A stretch of DNA of 64,000 bases from Acidovorax radicis N35 (lineage in GTDB: Bacteria > Pseudomonadota > Gammaproteobacteria > Burkholderiales > Burkholderiaceae_C): NCBI RefSeq assembly GCF_000204195.1, contig NZ_AFBG01000018.1, positions 620,001-684,000 of the forward strand, written 5' to 3'. Each line of letters starts with the position of its first letter. Position 1 is the first letter of the stretch. Made by a program: the position numbers and the translations under genes. Under the pieces are notes generated by a model. The model did not search any database and was not told where the DNA came from. It saw only the letters and a program-made list of their open reading frames with translations. This document shows, one piece after another, positions 2,131-54,137 of the stretch.

Positions 2131-2184
2131 AAAACAGCCACCAGCGCTTGATCCGTAAGCGCCACCAGCTATTAAAAAAGTAGC
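2131..2184 (+). repeat. Dispersed repeat A, copy 1
   Basis: It carries the family pattern: an inverted AGCGCTT / AAGCGC pair followed by AGCTATTAAAAAAGTAG. It lies between the hydrolase gene and the convergent LysR gene. Related copies occur at ten other places in this window. Confidence 0.8.
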
Positions 2185-2218: not shown

Positions 2219-3112
2219 CTACCATGGCGCCCCTGCAAACCGCAGCACCAAAAAATCCAGCAGCGCTCGCACCGCCGGCGACAGGTGCCTGCGCGAGGTG
2301 TACAGCGCGTGGATGGTCATCACCGGCAGGCTCCACGCGGGCAGCACGGCCTGCAGTTCGCCGCTGTGCAGATAGGGGTTGACCAGGTAGGTGGGCTGCA
2401 GTGCGATGCCGCCGCCCGCCAAGGCGGCGCGCATCAGCGTGGTGGCCTCGTTGGCGCTGAAGGGGCTGGTCACGCCCACGCGGGCGACCTCGTCGCCGCG
2501 GGTGAGCTGCCACACGCTTTTGCCAAAGTTGGCGTAGCTCAAACAACGGTGGCGGGTCAGGTCGGCGGGCTCCTGGGGCGTGCCGTGTGCCGCCAGGTAG
2601 GCGGGCGATGCCACCAGCGCCGAATCGCAGCGCGCCAGCGGCCGGCCAATGAGCAGCGGGTCGGGCTCGGCACTGATGCGGATCGCCAGGTCGATGCGGC
2701 GCTCCACCAGGTTCAGCGAGCCCTCGCTCGCGTCCAGGTCGATCTTGAGCTGCGGGTGTTGCGCCAAGAAGTCAGCAATCGCCGCGCCCATCTGCGCATA
2801 CGCAAACGACACGCTGCAGGTGATGCGCAGTTGCCCGCGCAGCTCGCCTTCAGTGGTGGTGGCGGTTTCTTCTTCCAGGTCCTGGGTCAGCGCCAGCATC
2901 TGCTGGCAGCGGCGCAGCGCCAGTTCACCGGCATCGGTCAGCGTCACGCTGCGGGTGGTGCGCTGCAGCAGCCGCGCCTGCAGCCACTGCTCCATCTCGC
3001 CCACATAGCGCGTGACCATGGCGCGCGACATCTCCAGCCGGTCTGCCGTGGCGCTGAAGCTGCCGCTGGTGGCCACTTCCACAAACACCCGCATGGCGGT
3101 CAGACGGTCCAT
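2219..3112 (-). CDS. LysR-family transcriptional regulator
   Basis: A 297-residue protein with the standard LysR layout: N-terminal winged helix-turn-helix (MDRLTAMRVFVEVATSGSFS, then AADRLEMSRAMVTRYV at about 20-40) and a C-terminal periplasmic-binding-like effector domain (RGQLRITCSVSFA near residue 90 onward). Length is typical. It is transcribed away from the metallo-beta-lactamase-fold gene at 3230, with 117 bases between the starts, which is the usual arrangement for a LysR protein controlling its neighbour. Two direct repeats in that gap are candidate binding sites. Effector unknown. Confidence 0.9.
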   Translation of the reverse strand: MDRLTAMRVFVEVATSGSFSATADRLEMSRAMVTRYVGEMEQWLQARLLQRTTRSVTLTDAGELALRRCQQMLALTQDLEEETATTTEGELRGQLRITCSVSFAYAQMGAAIADFLAQHPQLKIDLDASEGSLNLVERRIDLAIRISAEPDPLLIGRPLARCDSALVASPAYLAAHGTPQEPADLTRHRCLSYANFGKSVWQLTRGDEVARVGVTSPFSANEATTLMRAALAGGGIALQPTYLVNPYLHSGELQAVLPAWSLPVMTIHALYTSRRHLSPAVRALLDFLVLRFAGAPW

Positions 3113-4129: not shown

Positions 4130-4570
4130 ATGAAACCGTTCAAAGTGTTCCTCGTCGCTGCATCGCTGGCCGCAGTTTTCTCTGCCAATGCGTTTGCCCA
4201 GACCAACAAGGAAATCGTCGTGGCCGGCATGAAGGGCCTGTTCATCACGCGCGATGCTTCGGTCATCGACAAATACTGGTCCCCCAACTACATCCAGCAC
4301 AACCCTGCGGTGCCAAACGGGTCCGAGGTTCTGAAGGGGTGGGTCGGCAGCCTGCCGCCCGACTTCAAGTACGAGCCCGGCATGGTGGTGGCCGAAGGTG
4401 ACTTCGTCATGATGCACGGCCGCTACGCGGGCATGGGCCCCAAGGTCATGATTGGCGTCGATATCTTCCGCCTGGCCAACGGGAAAATTGTGGAGCACTG
4501 GGACGTCTTGCAAGAAGAAACGGTCAAGACGGTCAGTGGCAACCCCATGTTCACCAACCCCCAAAAGTGA
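4130..4570 (+). CDS. Secreted SnoaL/NTF2-like protein
   Basis: A 146-residue protein with a signal peptide (MKPFKVFLVAASLAAVFSANAFA, cleaved near 23) followed by an NTF2-like/SnoaL-type domain. The pattern YIQHNPAVPNG then MIGVDIFRLANGKIVEHWDV is typical of ester-cyclase-like members. These small cone-shaped domains bind hydrophobic ligands or act as isomerases or cyclases; no specific activity can be assigned. It lies 36 bases after the MBL-fold gene and overlaps the next gene by four bases (GTGA), so it is part of the same operon, probably controlled by the upstream LysR protein. Confidence 0.8.
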   Translation: MKPFKVFLVAASLAAVFSANAFAQTNKEIVVAGMKGLFITRDASVIDKYWSPNYIQHNPAVPNGSEVLKGWVGSLPPDFKYEPGMVVAEGDFVMMHGRYAGMGPKVMIGVDIFRLANGKIVEHWDVLQEETVKTVSGNPMFTNPQK

Positions 4571-12580: not shown

Positions 12581-12637
12581 ACTACTGAATTGATAGCTGC
12601 TAGCGCTTGTTGAATAAGCGCTAGAGGCCGATTTGAA
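12581..12637 (-). repeat. Dispersed repeat A, copy 2
   Basis: Inverted orientation: ATAGCTGCTAGCGCTTG, then AAGCGCTAGAGGC. It lies in the gap between Rrf2 and the methyltransferase remnant. Confidence 0.85.
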
Positions 12638-12670
12638 TTAATTTTTGGCCCATCTCGCCCACCCCCACCC

Positions 12671-12695
12671 GTTCGGGTTGAGCCTGTCGAAACCC
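12671..12695. repeat. Dispersed repeat D, single arm
   Basis: A GTTCGGGTTGAGCCTGTCGA-type sequence, the same unit that forms a full hairpin at 13547-13606. Confidence 0.7.
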
Positions 12696-13250
12696 TCCGC
12701 TGACCTGGCAACCCCATCGGACAGCCCCACCGCAAAACGCCGTACCCATCCCACGCCACACCACCCCATGACCCATCCCCCCACTTCCCCCTTCACCGAC
12801 CCCGCCGCCGTCGCCCGCTACGCCGAAGGCCCCCGACGCAACGTGCCCGGCTACGACAGCCTGCTGCCCATGGTCCGCATCCTGCTGGCCGAGCGCGTGC
12901 CCCCCGACGGCCGCGTGCTGGTGGTGGGCGCGGGCGGCGGGCTGGAGCTGGAAGACATGGCGCGGGCGCACCCCGGCTGGCGGTTCGACGGCGTGGACCC
13001 GAGTCAGCCCATGCTGGACTTGGCCGCGCAGCGGCTGCAGAGCGCGGGCGTGTCAGGCGACCGCGTGGCGCTGCACCGCGGCTATGTGCAGAGCGCACCG
13101 GCCGGGCCGTTCGATGGCGCGACGTGCCTGCTGACCTTTCACTTTGTGCCGCGCGAGGAGCGTGCGGCCATGGTGGCCGAGATCCGGCGGCGGCTGAAGC
13201 CTGGGGCGCCGTTCGTCGCGGTGCATCTGAGCGTGGCCGATGGTGATGCT

Positions 13251-13546: not shown

Positions 13547-13606
13547 CCGTTCGCGCTGAGCTTGTCGAAGCGCCGCGCAAGGCTTCGACAGGCTCAGCCC
13601 GAACGG
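13547..13606. repeat. Dispersed hairpin repeat D
   Basis: Arms of 25 bases at 13547-13571 and 13582-13606 (unit GCTTCGACAGGCTCAGCCC and its inverse) form a long stem. It overlaps the end of the broken methyltransferase. Confidence 0.85.
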
Positions 13607-13778
13607 TTGTTTCAATCCAGTGATGCCGATGCGAACAGTGATCGGTAGTCAGTGATCGCTGGAAGCGGGCAGTGCTTGGAACGCATAGGCACCGCGCCTG
13701 GCTGATCTCCAAGTCGGCTTGCTGCAGTACCGGGCCAGCAGCCCCCGTACCAGCCAGCCGGTGTCGCACAAAAGCCCC

Positions 13779-15810: not shown

Positions 15811-15863
15811 AAAAACAGGCTCTAGCGCTTGTTGGTAAAGCGCTTGCAGCTATAAAAATAAGA
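15811..15863 (+). repeat. Dispersed repeat A, copy 3
   Basis: It contains CTCTAGCGCTTG, then AAAGCGCTTGCAGCTATAAAAATAAG, between the cupin gene and the methyltransferase remnant. Confidence 0.82.
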
Positions 15864-23598: not shown

Positions 23599-23662
23599 TT
23601 TTTGAGTCAAATAGGCCTCTAGCGCTTATCCATAAAGCGCAAGCAGCTATTGAAAATATAGC
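23599..23662 (+). repeat. Dispersed repeat A, copy 4
   Basis: It contains GGCCTCTAGCGCTTATCC, AAAGCGCAAGCAGCTATTG and AAAATATAGC, between the binding protein and the isomerase gene. Confidence 0.88.
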
Positions 23663-25960: not shown

Positions 25961-26013
25961 ATGAAATCAGCCTTTAGCGCTTAGCTAGGAAGCGCTAGAC
26001 GCTATCTATTTGT
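25961..26013 (+). repeat. Dispersed repeat A, copy 5
   Basis: It contains CCTTTAGCGCTTAG, AAGCGCTAGACGCTATC, directly after the dehydrogenase stop; a divergent copy. Confidence 0.75.
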
Positions 26014-26663: not shown

Positions 26664-27917
26664 TCAGCCTGTCTTGAACGGGCTGCGTTCTTGCAGTTCG
26701 CTCAGGTAGTGCCCCACCCCCTCGCTTTCGCGCGCCAGAAACCGCTCCACCGCCTCGGCAAAGGCCGGGTGCGCCAGCCAGTGTGCGCTGGTGGCCTGCA
26801 CGGGCAGCAGGGCGCGGGCCATCTTGTGTTCGCCCTGGGCGCCGCCTTCAAAGCGCTGCACGCCATGGTCGATGCACCACTGCAGGGGCTGGTAGTAGCA
26901 GGCCTCAAAGTGCAGGCAGTCCACGCGCTCCAGCGCACCCCAATACCGGCCGTAGGCTACCAATCTTTGGTCTTTTTGGCTGCTAGCGCTTGATGGTAAA
27001 GCGCTGATAGCTATCAAACTACTAGCAATCGGCAGGCCATCGCGCTCGGCCACAAACAGCAGCCAGGCCTCGGGCATGTGCGCCGCCATGCGGGCAAAGA
27101 AGTCCCGCGTGAGGTAGGGCGGGTTGCCATGTTCGAGGTAGGTGCGTTCGTAGCAGCGGTAGAAAAAATCCCAGTCGGCCGCGCTGATGTCCGCGCCGCG
27201 TGACCAGCGGAAGGTGACTCCGGCCTCCGCCACGCGGCGGCGCTCCTGGCGGATCTTCTTGCGCTTGTCCTGGGCGAGGCTGGCGAGGAAGTGGTCGAAG
27301 TCTGTGAACGGTTGATTCCCGCCATCGACGGGCGGGGACCCCTCGGGGGGCAGCGAACCACGCGCAGCGGGGAGCGTGGGGGCCACATTCTTCCAGTGGA
27401 ACTGCACGGTGTGCCGCAGCATCAGGTCTTGCTGCGCACTGGTCAGCACATCGTCGTCGCTGGCAAACAGGATGTGCACGGACGACACGTTTTCGTCCTC
27501 GCACCACTGGCACACCGCCTGCACCAGCAGCGCGCGCGCGGCATCGTCGCGGGCCATCAGACGGGTGCCCGGCACGGGGGTGAAAGGCACGGCGATCACG
27601 GCCTTGGGGTAGTAGGGCACGCCGTGCTGCTCGTAGGCGCTGGCCCAGGCCCAGTCGAAGACGTATTCGCCGTAGGAATGGTTCTTGAGGTACAGCGGGC
27701 AGGCGGCAATCAAGGTGTTGCTGTCCCACAGGGTCAGGAAGCGCGCCGCCCAGCCCGTGCGCGGGGTGGCACTGCCGCTTGTCTCCAGGGCGGCCAGGTA
27801 CTCGTGGCGCATGAAGGGCGTGGGGTGGCTTTGCCGGGCCAGCAGGGTGTTCCAGGCCGCAGCATCCACCTCCAGCACAGAGGCAAGTACGCGGGCGATA
27901 ATGGCAGATTCAGCCAT
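26664..27917 (-). CDS. FemAB/GNAT-like N-acyltransferase (COG3146 type)
   Basis: A 417-residue protein from ATG 27917 (MAESAIIARV); an in-frame codon 24 bases upstream is an alternative. The sequence PTPFMRHEYLAALETSGSA, then KRKKIRQERRRVAEAGV and ERTYLEHGNPPYLT, FEGGAQGEHKMARALLP, is characteristic of this predicted N-acyltransferase family with tandem GNAT folds. Two segments look foreign to the fold: about 174-198, from repeat B, and about 298-318 (SLIAISALPSSASSQK), from repeat A. Both keep the frame. Substrate unknown. It is divergent from nadE. Confidence 0.82.
   Translation of the reverse strand: MAESAIIARVLASVLEVDAAAWNTLLARQSHPTPFMRHEYLAALETSGSATPRTGWAARFLTLWDSNTLIAACPLYLKNHSYGEYVFDWAWASAYEQHGVPYYPKAVIAVPFTPVPGTRLMARDDAARALLVQAVCQWCEDENVSSVHILFASDDDVLTSAQQDLMLRHTVQFHWKNVAPTLPAARGSLPPEGSPPVDGGNQPFTDFDHFLASLAQDKRKKIRQERRRVAEAGVTFRWSRGADISAADWDFFYRCYERTYLEHGNPPYLTRDFFARMAAHMPEAWLLFVAERDGLPIASSLIAISALPSSASSQKDQRLVAYGRYWGALERVDCLHFEACYYQPLQWCIDHGVQRFEGGAQGEHKMARALLPVQATSAHWLAHPAFAEAVERFLARESEGVGHYLSELQERSPFKTG
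26965..27024 (+). repeat. Dispersed repeat A, copy 6, inside acyltransferase CDS
   Basis: GGCTGCTAGCGCTTGATGG, then AAAGCGCTGATAGCTATC, within the minus-strand acyltransferase gene and read in frame on that strand. Confidence 0.85.
27325..27392 (+). repeat. Dispersed repeat B inside acyltransferase CDS
   Basis: It shares CCCCTCGGGGGGCAG and the GTGGGGGCCA end with the repeat in the ABC ATPase gene at 20151-20238. On the coding minus strand it gives PAARGSLPPEGSPP. Confidence 0.78.
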
Positions 27918-27997
27918 GCACACCCCGGTTTTGCTTTGCAAGCTGCGGGCCCGTGTGGGCAGTATTCAACCTGGCCGCAGGGGCCGATTCCAGTTCC

Positions 27998-30050
<2,053 letters not shown>

Positions 30051-34058: not shown

Positions 34059-35852
34059 ATGGAAATCTCCAAGGCTGAACTCAGTTCGGCGGCCGCTGCT
34101 TCGCAGGGCAACACTCCCTCCGCTTCCGGCTCGCAGGACCTCATGGGTTCTGAGATCCTCATCAAGTCGCTTCAGGCTGAGAACGTCCAGTACATCTGGG
34201 GCTACCCCGGTGGTGCGGTTCTCTACATTTACGACGCGCTCTACAAGCAAGACACCATCCAGCACGTGCTGGTGCGCCACGAGCAGGCTGCGGTGCACGC
34301 TGCCGACGGCTATGCCCGAGCCACGGGCGAAGTCGGTGTGGCGCTCGTCACCTCGGGCCCTGGCCTGACCAATGCGGTCACGGGTATTGCCACGGCATAC
34401 ATGGACAGCATTCCGATGGTGATCATTTCCGGCCAGGTGCCCACGCCCGCCATCGGGCTGGATGCCTTCCAGGAATGCGACACGGTTGGTATCACTCGCC
34501 CCATCGTCAAGCACAATTTCCTCGTCAAGGATCCCAAGGATCTGGCCATGACGATGAAGAAGGCCTTCCACATTGCACGCACCGGCCGCCCTGGCCCTGT
34601 GGTGGTGGATGTGCCCAAGGACGTTTCCTTCAAGAAGGTGCCGTACAGCGGCTATCCACAAAGTGTGGAAATGCGCTCGTACAACCCGGTGCGCAAGGGC
34701 CATGGTGGCCAGATCCGCAAGGCGCTGCAACTGCTGCTGGCCGCCAAGCGTCCCTATATCTATACCGGCGGCGGCGTGCTGCTGGGCAATGCCACCAACG
34801 AGCTGCGCACGTTGGTCGACATGCTCGGCTACCCCGTCACCAACACGCTGATGGGCCTGGGGGCTTACCCAGCCTCGGACCGCAAGTTCCTGGGCATGCT
34901 GGGCATGCATGGCACCATCGAGGCCAACAACGCCATGCAGAACTGCGACGTGCTGCTGGCCGTGGGTGCACGCTTTGACGACCGCGTGATCGGCAACCCC
35001 AAGCACTTCGCCCAGAACGACCGCAAGATCATCCATGTGGACATCGACCCGTCGAGCATTTCCAAGCGCGTGAAGGTCGACATCCCGATCGTCGGCGACG
35101 TGAAGGATGTGCTCACCGAGCTGATCTCCATGATCCGCGAGAGCAGCACCCGCCCCGACGCCGGCGCGCTGGCTGCCTGGTGGGACACCATCGAAGGCTG
35201 GCGCAAGCGCGACTGCCTGAAGTACAGCATGGGCAGTCCCGACGTCATCAAGCCACAGTATGTGGTCGAGACGCTGTGGAACATGACCAAGGACGTCGAC
35301 ACCTACATCACGTCCGACGTGGGCCAGCACCAGATGTGGGCCGCGCAGTACTACCGCTTTGATGAACCCCGCCGCTGGATCAATTCCGGTGGCCTGGGCA
35401 CCATGGGCGTGGGCATTCCCTACGCCATGGGCATCAAGCTGGCCAAGCCGGATTCTGAGGTGTTCTGCATCACGGGCGAAGGCTCGGTGCAGATGAACAT
35501 CCAGGAGCTGTCCACCTGCCTGCAGTACAACACGCCGATCAAGATCTGCTCGTTGAACAACCGCTACCTGGGCATGGTGCGCCAGTGGCAGGAGATCGAG
35601 TACTCCGGCCGCTACAGCCACAGCTACATGGACGCGCTGCCCAACTTCGTGAAGCTGGCCGAGGCCTACGGCCATGTGGGCATGCTGATCGAGCACCCCA
35701 AGGATGTGGAGCCCGCGCTGCGCGAAGCGCGCAAACTCAAGGACCGCACGGTGTTCATGGACTTCCGCACCGACCCCACCGAGAACGTGTTCCCGATGGT
35801 CCAGGCGGGCAAAGGCATCACCGAAATGTTGCTGGGGTCGGAAGACCTTTGA
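34059..35852 (+). CDS. ilvB: Acetolactate synthase large subunit
   Basis: A 597-residue ThDP enzyme. It joins two pyruvates, or pyruvate and 2-oxobutyrate, the first step of valine/leucine/isoleucine synthesis. ThDP-activating Glu75 lies in VRHEQAAVH; the ThDP/Mg2+ motif is ITGEGSVQMNIQELS ... SLNN near 465-510; the FAD-binding middle domain includes GARFDDRVIGN. The first 29 residues are a Ser/Ala-rich extension. The regulatory subunit ilvH follows after repeat A. Confidence 0.97.
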   Translation: MEISKAELSSAAAASQGNTPSASGSQDLMGSEILIKSLQAENVQYIWGYPGGAVLYIYDALYKQDTIQHVLVRHEQAAVHAADGYARATGEVGVALVTSGPGLTNAVTGIATAYMDSIPMVIISGQVPTPAIGLDAFQECDTVGITRPIVKHNFLVKDPKDLAMTMKKAFHIARTGRPGPVVVDVPKDVSFKKVPYSGYPQSVEMRSYNPVRKGHGGQIRKALQLLLAAKRPYIYTGGGVLLGNATNELRTLVDMLGYPVTNTLMGLGAYPASDRKFLGMLGMHGTIEANNAMQNCDVLLAVGARFDDRVIGNPKHFAQNDRKIIHVDIDPSSISKRVKVDIPIVGDVKDVLTELISMIRESSTRPDAGALAAWWDTIEGWRKRDCLKYSMGSPDVIKPQYVVETLWNMTKDVDTYITSDVGQHQMWAAQYYRFDEPRRWINSGGLGTMGVGIPYAMGIKLAKPDSEVFCITGEGSVQMNIQELSTCLQYNTPIKICSLNNRYLGMVRQWQEIEYSGRYSHSYMDALPNFVKLAEAYGHVGMLIEHPKDVEPALREARKLKDRTVFMDFRTDPTENVFPMVQAGKGITEMLLGSEDL

Positions 35853-35915
35853 GCAAGATAGGCCTCCAGCGCTTGTTCATCAAGCGCCAATAGCTATCAA
35901 ATAGATAGCAACTAC
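35852..35915 (+). repeat. Dispersed repeat A, copy 8
   Basis: GGCCTCCAGCGCTTGTTCAT, CAAGCGCCAATAGCTATC, then ATAGATAGCAACTAC, between ilvB and ilvH within the operon. Confidence 0.88.
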
Positions 35916-37712: not shown

Positions 37713-37801
37713 CATTGGCGGTGGGCCCTGTGGGCAGGCGCTACACTGCGGCCTTCGCCTTTTGCACGCACGGCGACCTGCCTGTCCTGCGGGAAATTGC
37801 T

Positions 37802-37859
37802 GAATACTATAAATTTAATAGCTGCTTGCGCAATATCGGCAAGCGCTGGAGGTCTTTTG
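37802..37859 (-). repeat. Dispersed repeat A, copy 9, supplies pssA ribosome binding site
   Basis: Inverted orientation: AATAGCTGCTTGCGC, then AAGCGCTGGAGGTC TTTT, with the pssA ATG at 37860 directly following. The GGAGGT of the repeat edge is the Shine-Dalgarno sequence. Confidence 0.82.
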
Positions 37860-38693
37860 ATGCATGACGGCAATGAGTCCACCGACAACCCTGGTGTGAT
37901 GGTGCGCAAAAGGCGCAAGGGCATCTACATCCTGCCCAACCTGTTCACGCTGGCGGCCTTGTTTGGGGGGTTCTACTCCATCGTGATGGCCATGAATGGT
38001 CGTTTTGACATGGCGGCCGTGGGCGTCTTCTGTGCCATGGTGCTCGACAGCCTCGATGGCCGTGTGGCGCGCATGACCAACACACAGAGTGCGTTTGGTG
38101 AGCAGATGGATTCGCTCTCCGACATGGTGTCTTTTGGGGCAGCTCCCGCGCTCATTGCTTACGAATGGGCGCTTCAGGGACTGGGTCGCTGGGGCTGGAT
38201 TGCCGCTTTTGTGTACTGTGCCTGTGCGGCCCTGCGTTTGGCGCGCTTCAATGTGAATACCGGCGTCGTGGACAAGCGCTACTTCCAGGGCTTGCCGTCC
38301 CCCGCCGCCGCTGCCCTGGTGGCCGGTTTCATCTGGTTGATGACCGAACTGGGTGTGCATCCGGGCGAAGACCTCTGGCTGTCCTGGAACCAGATCACCT
38401 GGACCATGTTTGCCTTCACGCTGTATGCAGGCCTGACCATGGTCACTAATGTGCCGTTCTACAGCTTCAAGGACATCCAGATGAAAAAAAGCGTGCCCTT
38501 TGCGGCGATCGTGCTGATCGCGCTGGGTATCGCCATCATCAACATCCACCCCCCCATTGTGTTGTTTGGCGTGTTTGTGTTCTATGGCATCAGTGGCTAT
38601 GGCGTGTACGCCTGGCGCAAAGCCAAAGGACAGCACAGCAGTGTGATCAGCACATCGACTGATGAGCCCGACGAGCGCGGGCTCCACAAGTGA
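37860..38693 (+). CDS. pssA: CDP-diacylglycerol-serine O-phosphatidyltransferase
   Basis: A 277-residue inner-membrane enzyme making phosphatidylserine from CDP-diacylglycerol and serine. The CDP-alcohol phosphotransferase motif DGRVARMTNTQSAFGEQMDSLSD fits DGxxAR(x8)Gx3Dx3D. About six to eight hydrophobic helices follow. ATG 37860 lies seven bases after the GGAGGT of repeat A; a longer frame starting in the repeat is rejected. It sits between ilvC and leuA, a neighbourhood often seen in betaproteobacteria. Confidence 0.93.
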   Translation: MHDGNESTDNPGVMVRKRRKGIYILPNLFTLAALFGGFYSIVMAMNGRFDMAAVGVFCAMVLDSLDGRVARMTNTQSAFGEQMDSLSDMVSFGAAPALIAYEWALQGLGRWGWIAAFVYCACAALRLARFNVNTGVVDKRYFQGLPSPAAAALVAGFIWLMTELGVHPGEDLWLSWNQITWTMFAFTLYAGLTMVTNVPFYSFKDIQMKKSVPFAAIVLIALGIAIINIHPPIVLFGVFVFYGISGYGVYAWRKAKGQHSSVISTSTDEPDERGLHK

Positions 38694-44306: not shown

Positions 44307-44382
44307 TGGCTCCTCGACCTGGGCTCGAACCAGGGACCTACGGATTAACAGTCCGGCGCTCTACCGACTGAGCTATCGAGGA
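44307..44382 (-). tRNA. tRNA-Asn (GTT)
   Basis: A 76-base gene including encoded CCA. The acceptor stem TCCTCGA/TCGAGGA closes, the anticodon loop CTGTTAA gives anticodon GTT, and the T arm GGTTCGAGCC is standard. It is the downstream member of a tandem pair. Confidence 0.97.
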
Positions 44383-44434
44383 ATGATCGGTATGTAAAAG
44401 GCCCCGCGTACACATGCAGGGCCTGCAAAATTCT

Positions 44435-44510
44435 TGGCTCCTCGACCTGGGCTCGAACCAGGGACCTACGGATTAACAGTCCGGCGCTCTACCGACTGAG
44501 CTATCGAGGA
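44435..44510 (-). tRNA. tRNA-Asn (GTT), second copy
   Basis: Identical in sequence over the tRNA to the copy at 44307-44382, including the encoded CCA. The two are separated by 52 bases and presumably co-transcribed on the minus strand. Confidence 0.97.
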
Positions 44511-44657
44511 ACAAGACTTAGATTATATACATAAAAATGGGGCCTCTAAAGATTCTGCAGCTTCTTCGAGCATGCAATTGCGGTGATACGGAGGGGTGAT
44601 GAAGGAGCGATGTAGGAATCACCCCATGCGCCGCCAGCACTCGCTGAGTGGGGCTCT

Positions 44658-49993: not shown

Positions 49994-50129
49994 GCCTTGA
50001 TTATCCCATTGGCCCCCGCGCCGTGCAGGCGGCACGGCCTGGGCCGGTAAAATGGCGGGCTCCGGTCCTGGCTGCAAGCTGCTGGGCCGGGTCTCTGTCT
50101 ACCCCTCACACCCCCAACAGGCCGCTACC

Positions 50130-53100
50130 GTGACCTTGCACATGACCACGCTGGCGGGCGGCAACGCCCTCAGCACCTTCCGCGCCCAGCAACTTCAACC
50201 TGCCCTGGAGGCGATTCACCCCAAGATCAGTGGCATTGCGGCACGTTTTGTGCACTTGGTGGTGACCGACGCAGCCCCCACGGCGGCGGAACAAGAACGC
50301 CTGGCCGCGCTGCTGACCTATGGCGACTCGTACGCAGGCCCCGAGGACGGCGCCGTCCTCATCGTCACGCCCCGCCTGGGCACGCTGTCGCCCTGGGCCT
50401 CCAAGGCCACCGACATTGCGCGCAACTGTGGCATCGCCATCCGCCGCGTGGAGCGCATCACTGAATACCGCGTCAGCCTCAAATCGGGCCTGCTGGGCAA
50501 GACGCCCGAGCTGACCGCCGAGCAACTGGGCCAGGTCGCCGCCTTGCTGCACGACCGCATGACCGAATCGGTGGTGGCTGACCGCAGCGCTGCTGCCGCC
50601 CTGTTCACCGAACTGCAGCCCGCGCCCATGGAGCATGTGGACGTGCTGGCCGGTGGCCGCGCTGCCCTGGAGGCCGCCAACACCCGCTTTGGCCTGGCCT
50701 TGGCCGATGACGAAATCGACTACCTCGTGACCGCTTTCACGGGCCTCAAGCGCAACCCCACCGATGTGGAACTGATGATGTTCGCGCAGGCCAACAGCGA
50801 ACACTGCCGCCACAAAATCTTCAACGCCGAGTTCACCATCGACGGCGTGGCGCAGGACAAGAGCCTGTTCGGCATGATCCGCAACACCCACCAGCTGGCG
50901 CCCCAGCACACGGTGATCGCGTATTCGGACAACGCCTCGGTCATGGAGGGGCATCAGGTCGAGCGATTTGTGGCAAAAATGGCATCTAGCGCTTATCCAT
51001 CAAGCGCCAATAGCTATCAAAAAAGTAGCGTCACCCAGCATGTGCTGATGAAGGTGGAAACGCACAACCACCCCACGGCCATCTCGCCCTTCCCGGGTGC
51101 GTCCACCGGTGCAGGCGGCGAGATCCGCGACGAAGGCGCCACCGGCCGGGGCTCCAAGCCCAAGGCGGGCCTCACGGGCTTTACGGTGTCCAAGCTCTGG
51201 GGTAGCACGGTCGGCAAGCCCGAGCACATCGCCAGCCCGCTGCAGATCATGGTCGAGGGTCCCTTGGGCGGCGCGGCGTTCAACAACGAATTTGGCCGCC
51301 CCAACCTGAATGGCTACTTCCGCGAATACGAGCAGGAAGTCGCTGGTGTGCAGCGCGGCTACCACAAGCCCATCATGATCGCGGGCGGCGTGGGCGTGAT
51401 CGATGCCGAGCTGACGAAGAAGATCGAATTTCCTGCGGGCTCGTTGCTGATCCAGTTGGGCGGCCCGGGCATGCGCATCGGCATGGGCGGCAGCGCCGCC
51501 AGTTCCATGGCCACGGGTACCAACGCGGCCGAGCTGGACTTTGACTCGGTGCAGCGTGGCAACCCCGAGATCGAGCGCCGTGCGCAAGAGGTCATCAACC
51601 ATTGCTGGGCGCAGGGTACCGACAACCCCATCCTGGCCATCCACGACGTGGGCGCGGGCGGCCTCTCGAACGCCTTCCCAGAGCTGACCAACGATGCAGG
51701 CCGTGGCGCACGCTTCGATCTGCGTGCCGTGCAGCTCGAAGAATCGGGCATGGCGCCCAAGGAAATCTGGAGCAACGAGTCGCAAGAGCGTTACGTGCTG
51801 GCCATCGCGCCCGAGTCGTTGCCCCTGTTCCAGGCCTTCTGCGAGCGCGAACGCTGCCCGTTTGCCGTGATCGGCACGGCCACGGAAGAGCGCCAGCTGG
51901 TGCTGCACGACCCGGCCGCGACGGCCGACGACCAGAAGCTGCCCGTGGACATGCCGATGAACGTGCTGCTGGGCAAGCCGCCCAAGATGCACCGCGACGT
52001 GAAGACCGTGGTGCGCGAATTCGCACCGATGGACCTGACCGGCGTGCCGCTGCAAAAGGCCGTGATCGACGTGCTGGCCCACCCCACGGTGGCGTCCAAG
52101 CGCTTTCTCATCACCATTGGCGACCGCACGGTGGGCGGCCTGAGCCACCGCGACCAGATGGTGGGCCCCTGGCAAGTGCCCGTGGCCGATTGCGCCGTGA
52201 CTTTGGCCGATTACAAAGGCTTTGCCGGTGAGGCGATGAGCATGGGCGAGCGCACCCCGCTGGCCGCCATCAACGCCCCCGCCTCGGGCCGCATGGCCGT
52301 GGCCGAGGCGCTGACCAACTTGTTGGCCGCCCCGATTGAACTGCCCCGCGTGAAGCTCAGCGCCAACTGGATGGCCGCCTGTGGCGAGCCCGGCGAAGAC
52401 GCCGCGCTGTACGAAACCGTGAAGGCCGTGGGCATGGAGCTGTGCCCGGCCCTTGGCATCAGCATCCCCGTGGGCAAGGACAGCCTGTCCATGCGCACGC
52501 AGTGGAACGAAGGTTCGGACAAGAAAAAGGTCACATCACCCGTCAGCCTGATCGTGAGCGCGTTTGCCTCGCTGTCCGACGTGCGTGGCACGCTCACCCC
52601 CCAGCTCAATGCCACCGAGGCAGACACCACGCTGGTGTTGATCGACCTGGGCAAGGGCCAGAACCGCATGGGTGGCAGCATCCTGGGCCAGACGCTGGAG
52701 CAAAGCGGCGACGTGGTGCCCGATGTGGACGACCCGAAAGATCTGGTCAATCTCGTCAACGCCGTGAACGCGCTGCGCGCCAAGGGCCAGATCCTGGCTT
52801 ACCACGACCGCAGCGATGGCGGCCTGTTGGCTGCAGCGGCAGAAATGGCGTTTGCAGGCCACGTGGGCGTGGCGCTCAACGTGGACATGCTGGTGACCGA
52901 GGGCGACGGCATCAGCGACAGCCGCATGGAAACCGGCGACGCCAAGAACTGGGCGCAGCAGGTCAGCGCGCGCCGTGAAGAACTGACGCTCAAGGCACTG
53001 TTCAACGAAGAGCTGGGCGTGGTGCTGCAGGTGCGTACGGCCGAGCGCAACGATGTGATGCAGACTCTGCGCGAGCACGGCCTGTCCAAGTTCAGCCACT

Positions 53101-54137
53101 TTGTGGGCAAGACGCGCCCTGCGTCGTCCGAGATCGATGCTGGCAAGGGCGAGCTGCAGGTCTGGCGCGATGCCAAGTCCGTGTTCAGCGCCCCGTTGGC
53201 CGATCTGCACCAGGTGTGGGATGCGGTGAGCTGGAAGATCTGCCGGCAGCGCGACAACCCCGCCAATGCCGATGCCGAGCACGCCGCAGCGGGCGAGCCC
53301 ACCGACCCCGGCCTGCATGTGCACCTCACGTTCGACGCCACCGACAACGTGGCAGCGCCGTACTTGAATCTGTCCCGTCCCAAGGTTGCCATCCTGCGCG
53401 AGCAGGGCGTGAACTCGCACATTGAGATGGCCTACACGTTCACGGAAGCAGGCTTTGAGGCCTACGACGTGCACATGACCGACCTGCAGACTGGCCGCGT
53501 GAAGCTTGAAGACTTCAAGGGCGTGGTCGCCTGTGGTGGCTTCAGCTATGGCGACACGCTGGGTGCGGGCATTGGCTGGGCGCGTTCCATCACCTTCAAC
53601 CCGGTGCTGGCCGCTCAGTTCCAGGGCTTCTTCGGCCGTTCCGACACCTTCGGCCTGGGCGTGTGCAACGGCTGCCAGATGTTTGCCGAGCTGGCTGACA
53701 TCATCCCCGGCGCGCAAGACTGGCCACGTTTCACCACCAACCAGAGCGAGCGCTTTGAGGCCCGCCTGTCGCTGGTGGAAGTGCTCGAATCACCCAGCCT
53801 GTTCCTGCAAGGCATGGCCGGCAGCCGCCTGCCGATTGCCGTGGCGCACGGCGAGGGGTATGCCAACTTCAAGTACCGGGGCAATGCCGATAAGGCGATT
53901 GCCGCCATGCGCTATGTGGACAACCACGGCCGCGCCACCGAGCAGTACCCGTTCAACCCCAACGGCAGCACGGGTGGCCTCACGGCCGTGACCACGGCCG
54001 ACGGCCGCTTTACCGCCATGATGCCGCACCCCGAGCGCGTTTTCCGCAATGTGCAGATGAGCTGGACCAGCGAAGACGCATCGCAATACAGCGCCTGGAT
54101 GCGCATCTGGCGCAATGCGCGCAAGTGGGTGGGGTGA
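50130..54137 (+). CDS. purL: Phosphoribosylformylglycinamidine synthase
   Basis: A 1335-residue single-chain (large type) purine synthesis enzyme. Start is GTG 50130 (encoding [11 protein letters not shown]), with ATG 50142 possible. After the N-terminal PurS-like part come the two AIRS-like synthetase halves ([33 protein letters not shown]-like [19 protein letters not shown]) and the C-terminal class I glutamine amidotransferase ([22 protein letters not shown]). Residues about 282-300 ([15 protein letters not shown]) are encoded by an inserted repeat A. Its convergent neighbour is the salicylate operon. Confidence 0.97.
50975..51028 (+). repeat. Dispersed repeat A, copy 11, inside purL
   Basis: It contains TCTAGCGCTTATCCATCAAG, CGCCAATAGCTATC and AAAAAAGTAG, read in frame just before the conserved VETHNHPTA block. 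Confidence 0.93.

Follow-up and report, generated by a model that had tools for sequence, protein, structure and literature searches.

DNA uptake sequences (DUS and USS, in Neisseriaceae and Pasteurellaceae) are far denser in their genomes than one per 8 kb. PMC2397512 describes DUS as strictly conserved, located at permissive positions and arranged as inverted repeats that serve as terminators, and in PMC4212676 uptake sequences are given as short, 9–11 bp; the latter paper reports that the symbiont Verminephrobacter eiseniae can be transformed, with sequence specificity suspected by the authors. This species belongs to the Comamonadaceae according to PMC3110155, where the beta-proteobacterial repeat element BRE is described as 75–91 bp long with 69% GC in Bordetella, present in at most 29 copies and partly tandem.

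The element described here, found in the 64,000-nt stretch of Acidovorax radicis N35 DNA that was analysed (the window), is like DUS/USS a motif over-represented throughout the genome and conserved in its core, which is lineage-specific, often an inverted repeat and held vertically at permissive positions of core genes, but unlike these it is a composite of ~68 nt with about one copy per 8 kb, is found in phage contigs too and has a receptor and an uptake role that are putative. As with the Rickettsia palindromic elements (RPE), metabolic genes contain a palindromic repeat that is read through in frame; unlike RPE, which are insertions of ~150 bp according to PMC10969869, the element brings little length gain, is under DNA-level constraint and has sites common to several genera. 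With the REP/BIME/REPIN sequences and their RAYT it shares the hundreds of copies, the location near gene 3' ends, the palindromic form and the vertical inheritance, and it differs from them in layout, in being inside gene calls in 19 of 108 copies, and in that the presence of RAYT, with its subfamilies pooled, does not track the switches between genomes with and without the element. BRE is likewise a Comamonadaceae repeat with some copies in coding sequences, but identity with it was rejected, as BRE is low-copy and GC-rich by the description available (PMC3110155) and the element has hundreds of copies and, in purL, a GC content of 44%.

The purL gene (50052–54137, + strand) encodes an intact phosphoribosylformylglycinamidine synthase of 1361 aa, which has solved relatives such as 1t3t and reaches 2041 bits against NCBIfam NF003672 (cut-off 783). 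The element is read in frame at 50966–51031 (+), corresponding to residues ~305–326, and was scored with a weight matrix and a covariance model that were both built without the purL copy. The matrix score is 78.5, compared to 14.9 for the best reversed-DNA score, and the covariance model gives 67 bits (E 2.4e-15). The left A/T tract, AAAA in this copy, is located at 50976–50979 (+), the inverted repeat AGCGCTT-N7-AAGCGC with its variable 7-nt spacer at 50988–51007 (+), and the AGCTATCAAAAAAGTAGC module (GCTAT, A/T tract, TAGC), translated SYQKSS, at 51012–51029 (+). An earlier note had taken about 18 PurL residues, encoded at 50975–51028, as a literal translation of a repeat placed directly ahead of the segment VETHNHPTA, with no stop in the frame and the remainder of the enzyme intact. 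This description is borne out, and the interval falls within the matrix span; 22 of 89 copies outside genes are stop-free in the same frame. The site is also a variable loop of PurL, and the surface position proposed for it is plausible; AlphaFold2 on a 463-residue PurL fragment gave a mean pLDDT of 36.5, which is too poor to place the loop.

The information of the element spans ~68 nt in the weight matrix of 108 copies, in the order A/T tract, GGCC, AGCGCTT-N7-AAGCGC, GCTAT, A/T tract and TAGC, and the left A/T tract is AAAA, AAAT or TTTT in 89 of the 108. The core pattern AGCGCTTN7AAGCGCN4AGCTAT is near-palindromic, so some places match on both strands; with up to three mismatches it gave 14 matches at 9 distinct places in the window (0.01 in shuffles), and with up to two mismatches 260 + 269 matches in the whole genome of 5.53 Mb, some copies being counted twice, with 0 in the control. 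The matrix without the purL copy, run over 864 kb of this contig, finds the 108 copies at a threshold of 18, which was exceeded in the reversed sequence 0 times in the last matrix round and once in the first.

Dispersed copies in the window have cores without mismatches at 2143–2172 (+), 12593–12622 (-), 15824–15853 (+) and 23621–23650 (+), and a weaker one with one mismatch is located at 25976–26005 (+). The copy at 26985–27014 (+) lies antisense, and in frame, in a FemAB-like/GNAT gene (26664–27941, -), and is found at the same place in the close relative G001 and not in G117, a genome of another genus. A divergent copy at 28735–28776 (+; score 56.1), in frame in the NAD synthetase gene (27953–29656, +), is at the same place in both of these genomes, as is the copy at 35868–35897 (+) between gene 34059–35852 and ilvH, immediately before the leader RNA of ilvH (RF02993, 35923–35990). 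The copy at 37818–37847 (-), with 2 mismatches and a matrix score of 53.4, is located at the start of a called gene (37797–38693, +); the calls come from a simple in-house caller (700 genes, 86.7% coding) and some starts may be too early. The element matches none of the Rfam families at gathering score, the hits in the window being limited to the ilvH leader and two tRNAs, and searches of an open-access literature collection found no description of it. The two tRNA genes are identical and in tandem (44307–44383 and 44435–44511), and the window also contains another inverted repeat pair, with TTCGACAGGCTCA, at 12666–12700 and 13575–13609 (86% complementary).

In the 864 kb, 19 of the 108 copies lie within gene calls by more than 60 nt, using five frames and both strands, and the element is thus read in frame by unrelated host genes. 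Copies overlapping genes are in the same orientation as the gene in 12 cases and in the opposite in 13. Of 83 copies clear of gene calls, 31 are between convergent and 9 between divergent genes, where the baseline of 387 gaps above 60 nt has 80 and 90 respectively, and the gene ends adjacent to copies are 105 3' ends versus 60 starts, compared to 377 versus 397 for all gaps above 60 nt. On this part of the contig (C13, 1–864000) 73 copies are on the + strand and 35 on the - strand (p 0.0003), with the genes balanced (348 of 700 on +); replication polarity was considered for this bias and rejected, as genome G022 shows 24 + and 22 - copies between 1.0 and 2.15 Mb. The pairs of the inner stem are mostly invariant, with 0–4 two-sided changes per pair against 2–31 broken cells of 108. 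The presence of both orientations in genes, and of A or T tracts alike, fits recognition of duplex DNA better than of RNA.

The purL site was then compared over the family, which we take to be the Comamonadaceae from named neighbours. PurL loci were scored from 90 genomes, 30 of them retrieved first and 60 picked from the same list; they are 45 of the 46 with at least three dispersed copies (carriers; G136 left out), all 12 with one or two copies, and 33 of the 102 with none, picked mostly among the closest PurLs; copy numbers per genome are from strict filters and high values mean at least 31. The site is occupied, with a score above 0, in 45/45, 4/12 and 0/33 genomes respectively, the cut at 0 being chosen after the scores were seen, with the lowest carrier at 2.4 (G086) and the highest zero-copy genome at -13.8 (G062). 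With the covariance model at E ≤ 1 the site is recovered from 38 of the 45 carriers and from none of the 33 zero-copy genomes. On a PurL tree, built from this single gene with the loop excluded, carriers and non-carriers are interleaved, and by parsimony the dispersed state changes 22 times and the purL state 24 times, with four congeners assumed to be carriers and six outgroups to be non-carriers, without copy counts of their own; 200 shuffles of the dispersed state required 34.6 changes on average and at least 26. In all seven discordant cherries both the dispersed and the purL state switch.

Within the genus, 20 of the 22 PurL sequences besides that of the window have the same loop length, and five of these 20 genomes, scored with the matrix, gave 52–81. 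The two others are G005 (L053), without the loop, and G002 (L054), with a partial loop, and their genomes contain 6 and 11 loose pattern matches (controls 1 and 1), compared to 760 in A. radicis N35. The expectation that the segment should be absent or variable in relatives did therefore not hold, and a recent or strain-variable insertion is rejected, as the site is common to genus and family. In other genera the element DNA, not just the peptide, recurs at the same place of PurL, and the opposite outcome, the same residues in relatives without likeness of the DNA to the repeat, was not what was found, since carriers keep the DNA likeness paired with dispersed copies. Genome G111, with a single dispersed match, has a similar peptide (SYQKAS) but GC-rich codons. 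Trace remnants occur in G062 and G175, which have 0 copies and still read TATCAAAAA, and G147 and G148, with one match each, retain the right-hand module.

Among PurL records of named genomes 71 of 80 loci could be parsed and 11 score above 0, namely Acidovorax temperans, six Polaromonas and four MAG records of other names; A. temperans is also the nearest named record, with 95% over a 193-aa fragment. Records of Paracidovorax oryzae, Hydrogenophaga, Limnohabitans, Caenimonas, Pseudacidovorax, Rubrivivax and Leptothrix do not score above 0. A search of 200 genomes of the order, 6 of which were judged to be in the family from the sorted list, gave one weak match each in 2 of the remaining 194 with the strict filters. 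The element is characteristic of part of the Comamonadaceae.

Extra copies around the main purL site are seen in other genera, ~0.5 kb before it in L160 (2659–2728) and L086 (1159–1228), and ~2.4 kb after it in L154 (986–1055), L139 (998–1067), L152 (932–1001), L145 (5507–5576), L162 (5573–5642) and L312 (5025–5094), the latter group by distance near the linker to the PurL glutaminase domain. In genome G006 (L057) a different, GC-rich stretch of ~105 nt, presumably a dispersed repeat, is read in frame in another PurL loop at residues ~618–629; this is a true length gain, read in G006 only, and the congener G012 shows the same gap in matches.

The element corresponds to 22 codons, but its presence changes the length of the host proteins very little. 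The spacer between fixed motifs has in PurL a median of 31 residues in the 45 carriers versus 27 in the 33 zero-copy genomes, in TilS 23 (18 carriers) versus 22 (4 zero-copy), and in AceE 36 (18 carriers) versus 31 (7 zero-copy; 3 unparsed), giving median gains of just 4, 1 and 5 residues. Carrier lengths are uniform, in 38 of 45 for purL and 18 of 18 for tilS, where the length says little because all 18 parsed carriers have 23 residues including two without the element. A net insertion of full length relative to element-free orthologues is not seen in any of the three genes. The element thus overlies a variable loop of PurL and is not an addition to it. The proposal of the earlier note that a mobile or amplifying repeat had been inserted and had added ~18 residues is not supported, as the gain is ~4 residues, not 18–22, and genomes of many genera have the element at this very site.

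The same pattern is found in tilS and aceE. A tilS copy at the same codon position is present in 16 of 18 carriers, 0 of 2 genomes with one or two copies and 0 of 4 zero-copy genomes, with 6 of 30 loci unparsed, among them the carrier G117, which is without a tilS copy by site mapping. For aceE, where the copy is antisense, the corresponding numbers at the same codon position are 19 of 20, 1 of 2 and 0 of 7, with 1 of 30 loci unparsed. Carriers without a scoring local copy are G042, G171 and G117 in tilS and G064 in aceE. All 20 parsed carriers have Cys before the Tyr of AceE, matching what GGCTGCTAT demands, and the zero-copy genomes have Ala or Gly there in 5 of 7 and Cys in 2 of 7, in which RGCY is likewise present. 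As aceE and tilS likewise show an overlay on loop residues of their own, purL is not special.

The purL copies obey preferences at the level of DNA rather than of codons. The loop Tyr is encoded by TAT in 40 of 45 carriers (26% elsewhere in the same genes) and in 9 of 32 zero-copy genomes (29%), the loop Gln by CAA in 29 of 30 carriers (26% background) and 5 of 8 zero-copy genomes, and the loop Glu by GAA in 12 of 12 (38% background) and 2 of 4. Genomes were grouped by copy number, independently of purL, and the counts are of related sequences and not of independent events; the zero-copy values for CAA and GAA indicate that part of the bias can be shared ancestry.

The sites are inherited as such. 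On 400 kb of G001, copies were found at the orthologous place for 26 of the 33 intergenic sites that could be mapped and for 10 of the 11 genic ones, the 26 intergenic copies all having the same orientation and the single genic failure being a 28% paralogue. In G117 (240 kb) 6 of 7 intergenic and 2 of 4 genic sites have orthologous copies, and in the zero-copy genome G170 (160 kb) there are none at 5 mapped sites, one of which is the 28% paralogue. Presence is thus mostly constant between close relatives, though 7 of 33 intergenic sites differ in G001, indicating that turnover exists. The identity of the 26 intergenic G001 pairs is 0.90 in the core, 0.62 in the spacers and 0.62–0.63 in the flanks, whereas non-orthologous pairs in this comparison have 0.81 in the core and 0.33 in the spacers; six intergenic G117 pairs have 0.77, 0.48 and 0.37–0.38, against 0.72 and 0.33 for core and spacers of non-orthologous pairs, and ten genic G001 pairs have a core identity of 0.87, against 0.83, all core figures being inflated since the compared copies had been found by score. 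Likeness of the spacers is confined to orthologues, from which inheritance of each site follows, and gene conversion among copies is not supported, as orthologous spacers are alike (0.62) and non-orthologous ones are not (0.33).

The sites descend from common ancestors, retain their core and are lost together, and the explanation that we favour, with a probability of about 0.6, is that the purL segment is an ancient, vertically inherited recognition site in double-stranded DNA, under a genome-wide constraint and lost with it. A putative trans-acting host protein would recognise the sites as DNA, and might be a chromosome-organising factor, or the receptor or drive system of something of the DNA-uptake-sequence kind. 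Recognition would preserve the core letters even in essential genes, wherever the protein loop tolerates them, and loss of the putative recogniser would lead to decay of all copies including the coding ones, so that the loop peptide would be a by-product of the DNA site and not a selected feature of the protein. ComEC was found in 156 of 160 genomes, in carriers and non-carriers alike, with the carrier G077 among the four without, and its near ubiquity makes it uninformative on uptake. The RAYT-type transposase domain PF01797 is present in 41 of 46 carriers versus 70 of 114 others, a single divergent copy being the usual case (Fisher p 0.0005, uncorrected for kinship), with the carriers G057, G164, G123, G171 and G185 outside the 111 genomes that match at E ≤ 1e-5, and both members match in all seven discordant cherries. 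RAYT, with its subfamilies pooled, was thus set aside as the factor, since not every carrier needs it and its presence does not follow the sister switches, despite the enrichment among carriers.

Copies are found also outside the chromosomes of the family. Sixty stretches of IMG/VR phage contigs (L381–L440) contain the exact core, with 0 for the reversed pattern, and the 18 of these that were taken for rescoring with the model all match; ten proteins from four phage loci were noted, some matching endolysin, anti-repressor, replication protein or HNH endonuclease. The E. coli plasmid NZ_KJ541071.1 (L441) has copies at 2982–3051 and 4178–4247 (53.5 and 35.6 bits) in DUF1010 ORFs, which may be spurious, and these copies flank blaOXA-2, which stands in an array followed by qacEdelta1 and sul1; this suggests that the source of the blaOXA-2 array cassette carried the element.

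The phage and integron copies indicate that copies travel, and mobility is made unlikely only as the explanation of purL. There, the element would be an old mobile palindrome, comparable to a MITE or a Rickettsia palindromic element, that entered the gene in frame in a common ancestor, was later trimmed and now survives as relics, which we regard as improbable. It would account for the hundreds of dispersed copies, for those inside gene calls (19 of 108, in five frames) and for those in phages and an integron array, and in-frame palindromes are known from Rickettsia (PMC10969869), but the median net gain in three genes is 1–5 residues, the gap at the seven intergenic sites missing from G001 is shorter in one, by 43 nt, and longer in the others (unaligned lengths), and relics would not vanish together from purL and the genome in many lineages unless maintained. 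Somewhat less improbable, though still on the unlikely side, is a drive similar to DNA uptake, where the element would be a long uptake or self-recognition sequence of naturally transformable Comamonadaceae, spread and kept by biased uptake and recombination; given the specificity suspected in V. eiseniae and the behaviour of DUS, this is a live special case of the recognition-site explanation. A core that stays conserved at permissive places within core genes, the inverted-repeat layout, the excess of copies near gene 3' ends (105 versus 60 starts) and the parallel losses would be expected from it, sequence specificity is suspected for the transformable V. eiseniae (PMC4212676), and DUS are likewise strictly conserved, at permissive positions and as inverted repeats (PMC2397512). 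Such a system would however have to work with ~68 nt once per 8 kb instead of short signals of 9–11 bp, phage contigs bear the element while PMC2397512 states that DUS are absent from recently acquired genes, and the receptor is a putative one.

A REPIN/RAYT population, maintained through a domesticated Y1 transposase, would also be palindromic, mostly intergenic, vertical and present in hundreds of copies, and REPINs persist in a similar way (PMC8049555), but the enrichment of PF01797 (41/46 against 70/114) leaves five carriers without a match at E ≤ 1e-5, where subfamilies are pooled and weak members may be missed, and as the domain is in both members of the seven discordant cherries its presence does not track the switches; we consider this very unlikely. 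There is hardly any reason to believe that the repeat family began as a coding piece of purL and then spread, for although element-free PurL often has the residues found at both ends of the element (RF, Y.K), an equivalent overlay is seen in aceE and tilS on residues of their own. An ordinary conserved protein loop with a chance likeness to the repeat would agree with a peptide common to several genera, but is practically refuted by the score of 78.5, where reversed DNA reaches 14.9 at most, by the codon bias and by the co-loss.

With the recognition site as the preferred reading of the purL segment, the wider picture, held here with some reserve and at slightly below even odds, is that chromosomes in part of the Comamonadaceae are marked by hundreds of long composite DNA sites, also in essential genes, whose protein loops would have to follow the DNA, and that these sites would be kept or lost with a putative recogniser, and that this marking would be a self-recognition, uptake or chromosome-organising system. 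The natural switches between sister species mean that the putative recogniser should be findable by comparison of sister genomes or by pull-down. What looks like the insertion of a repeat into a gene can turn out to be a conserved DNA site that overlies a loop, and the element may be a fingerprint for DNA of such origin in phages and integron arrays. In PurL, TilS and pyruvate dehydrogenase E1, repeatedly across genera, a constraint at the level of DNA overrides the choice of codons and probably that of residues.
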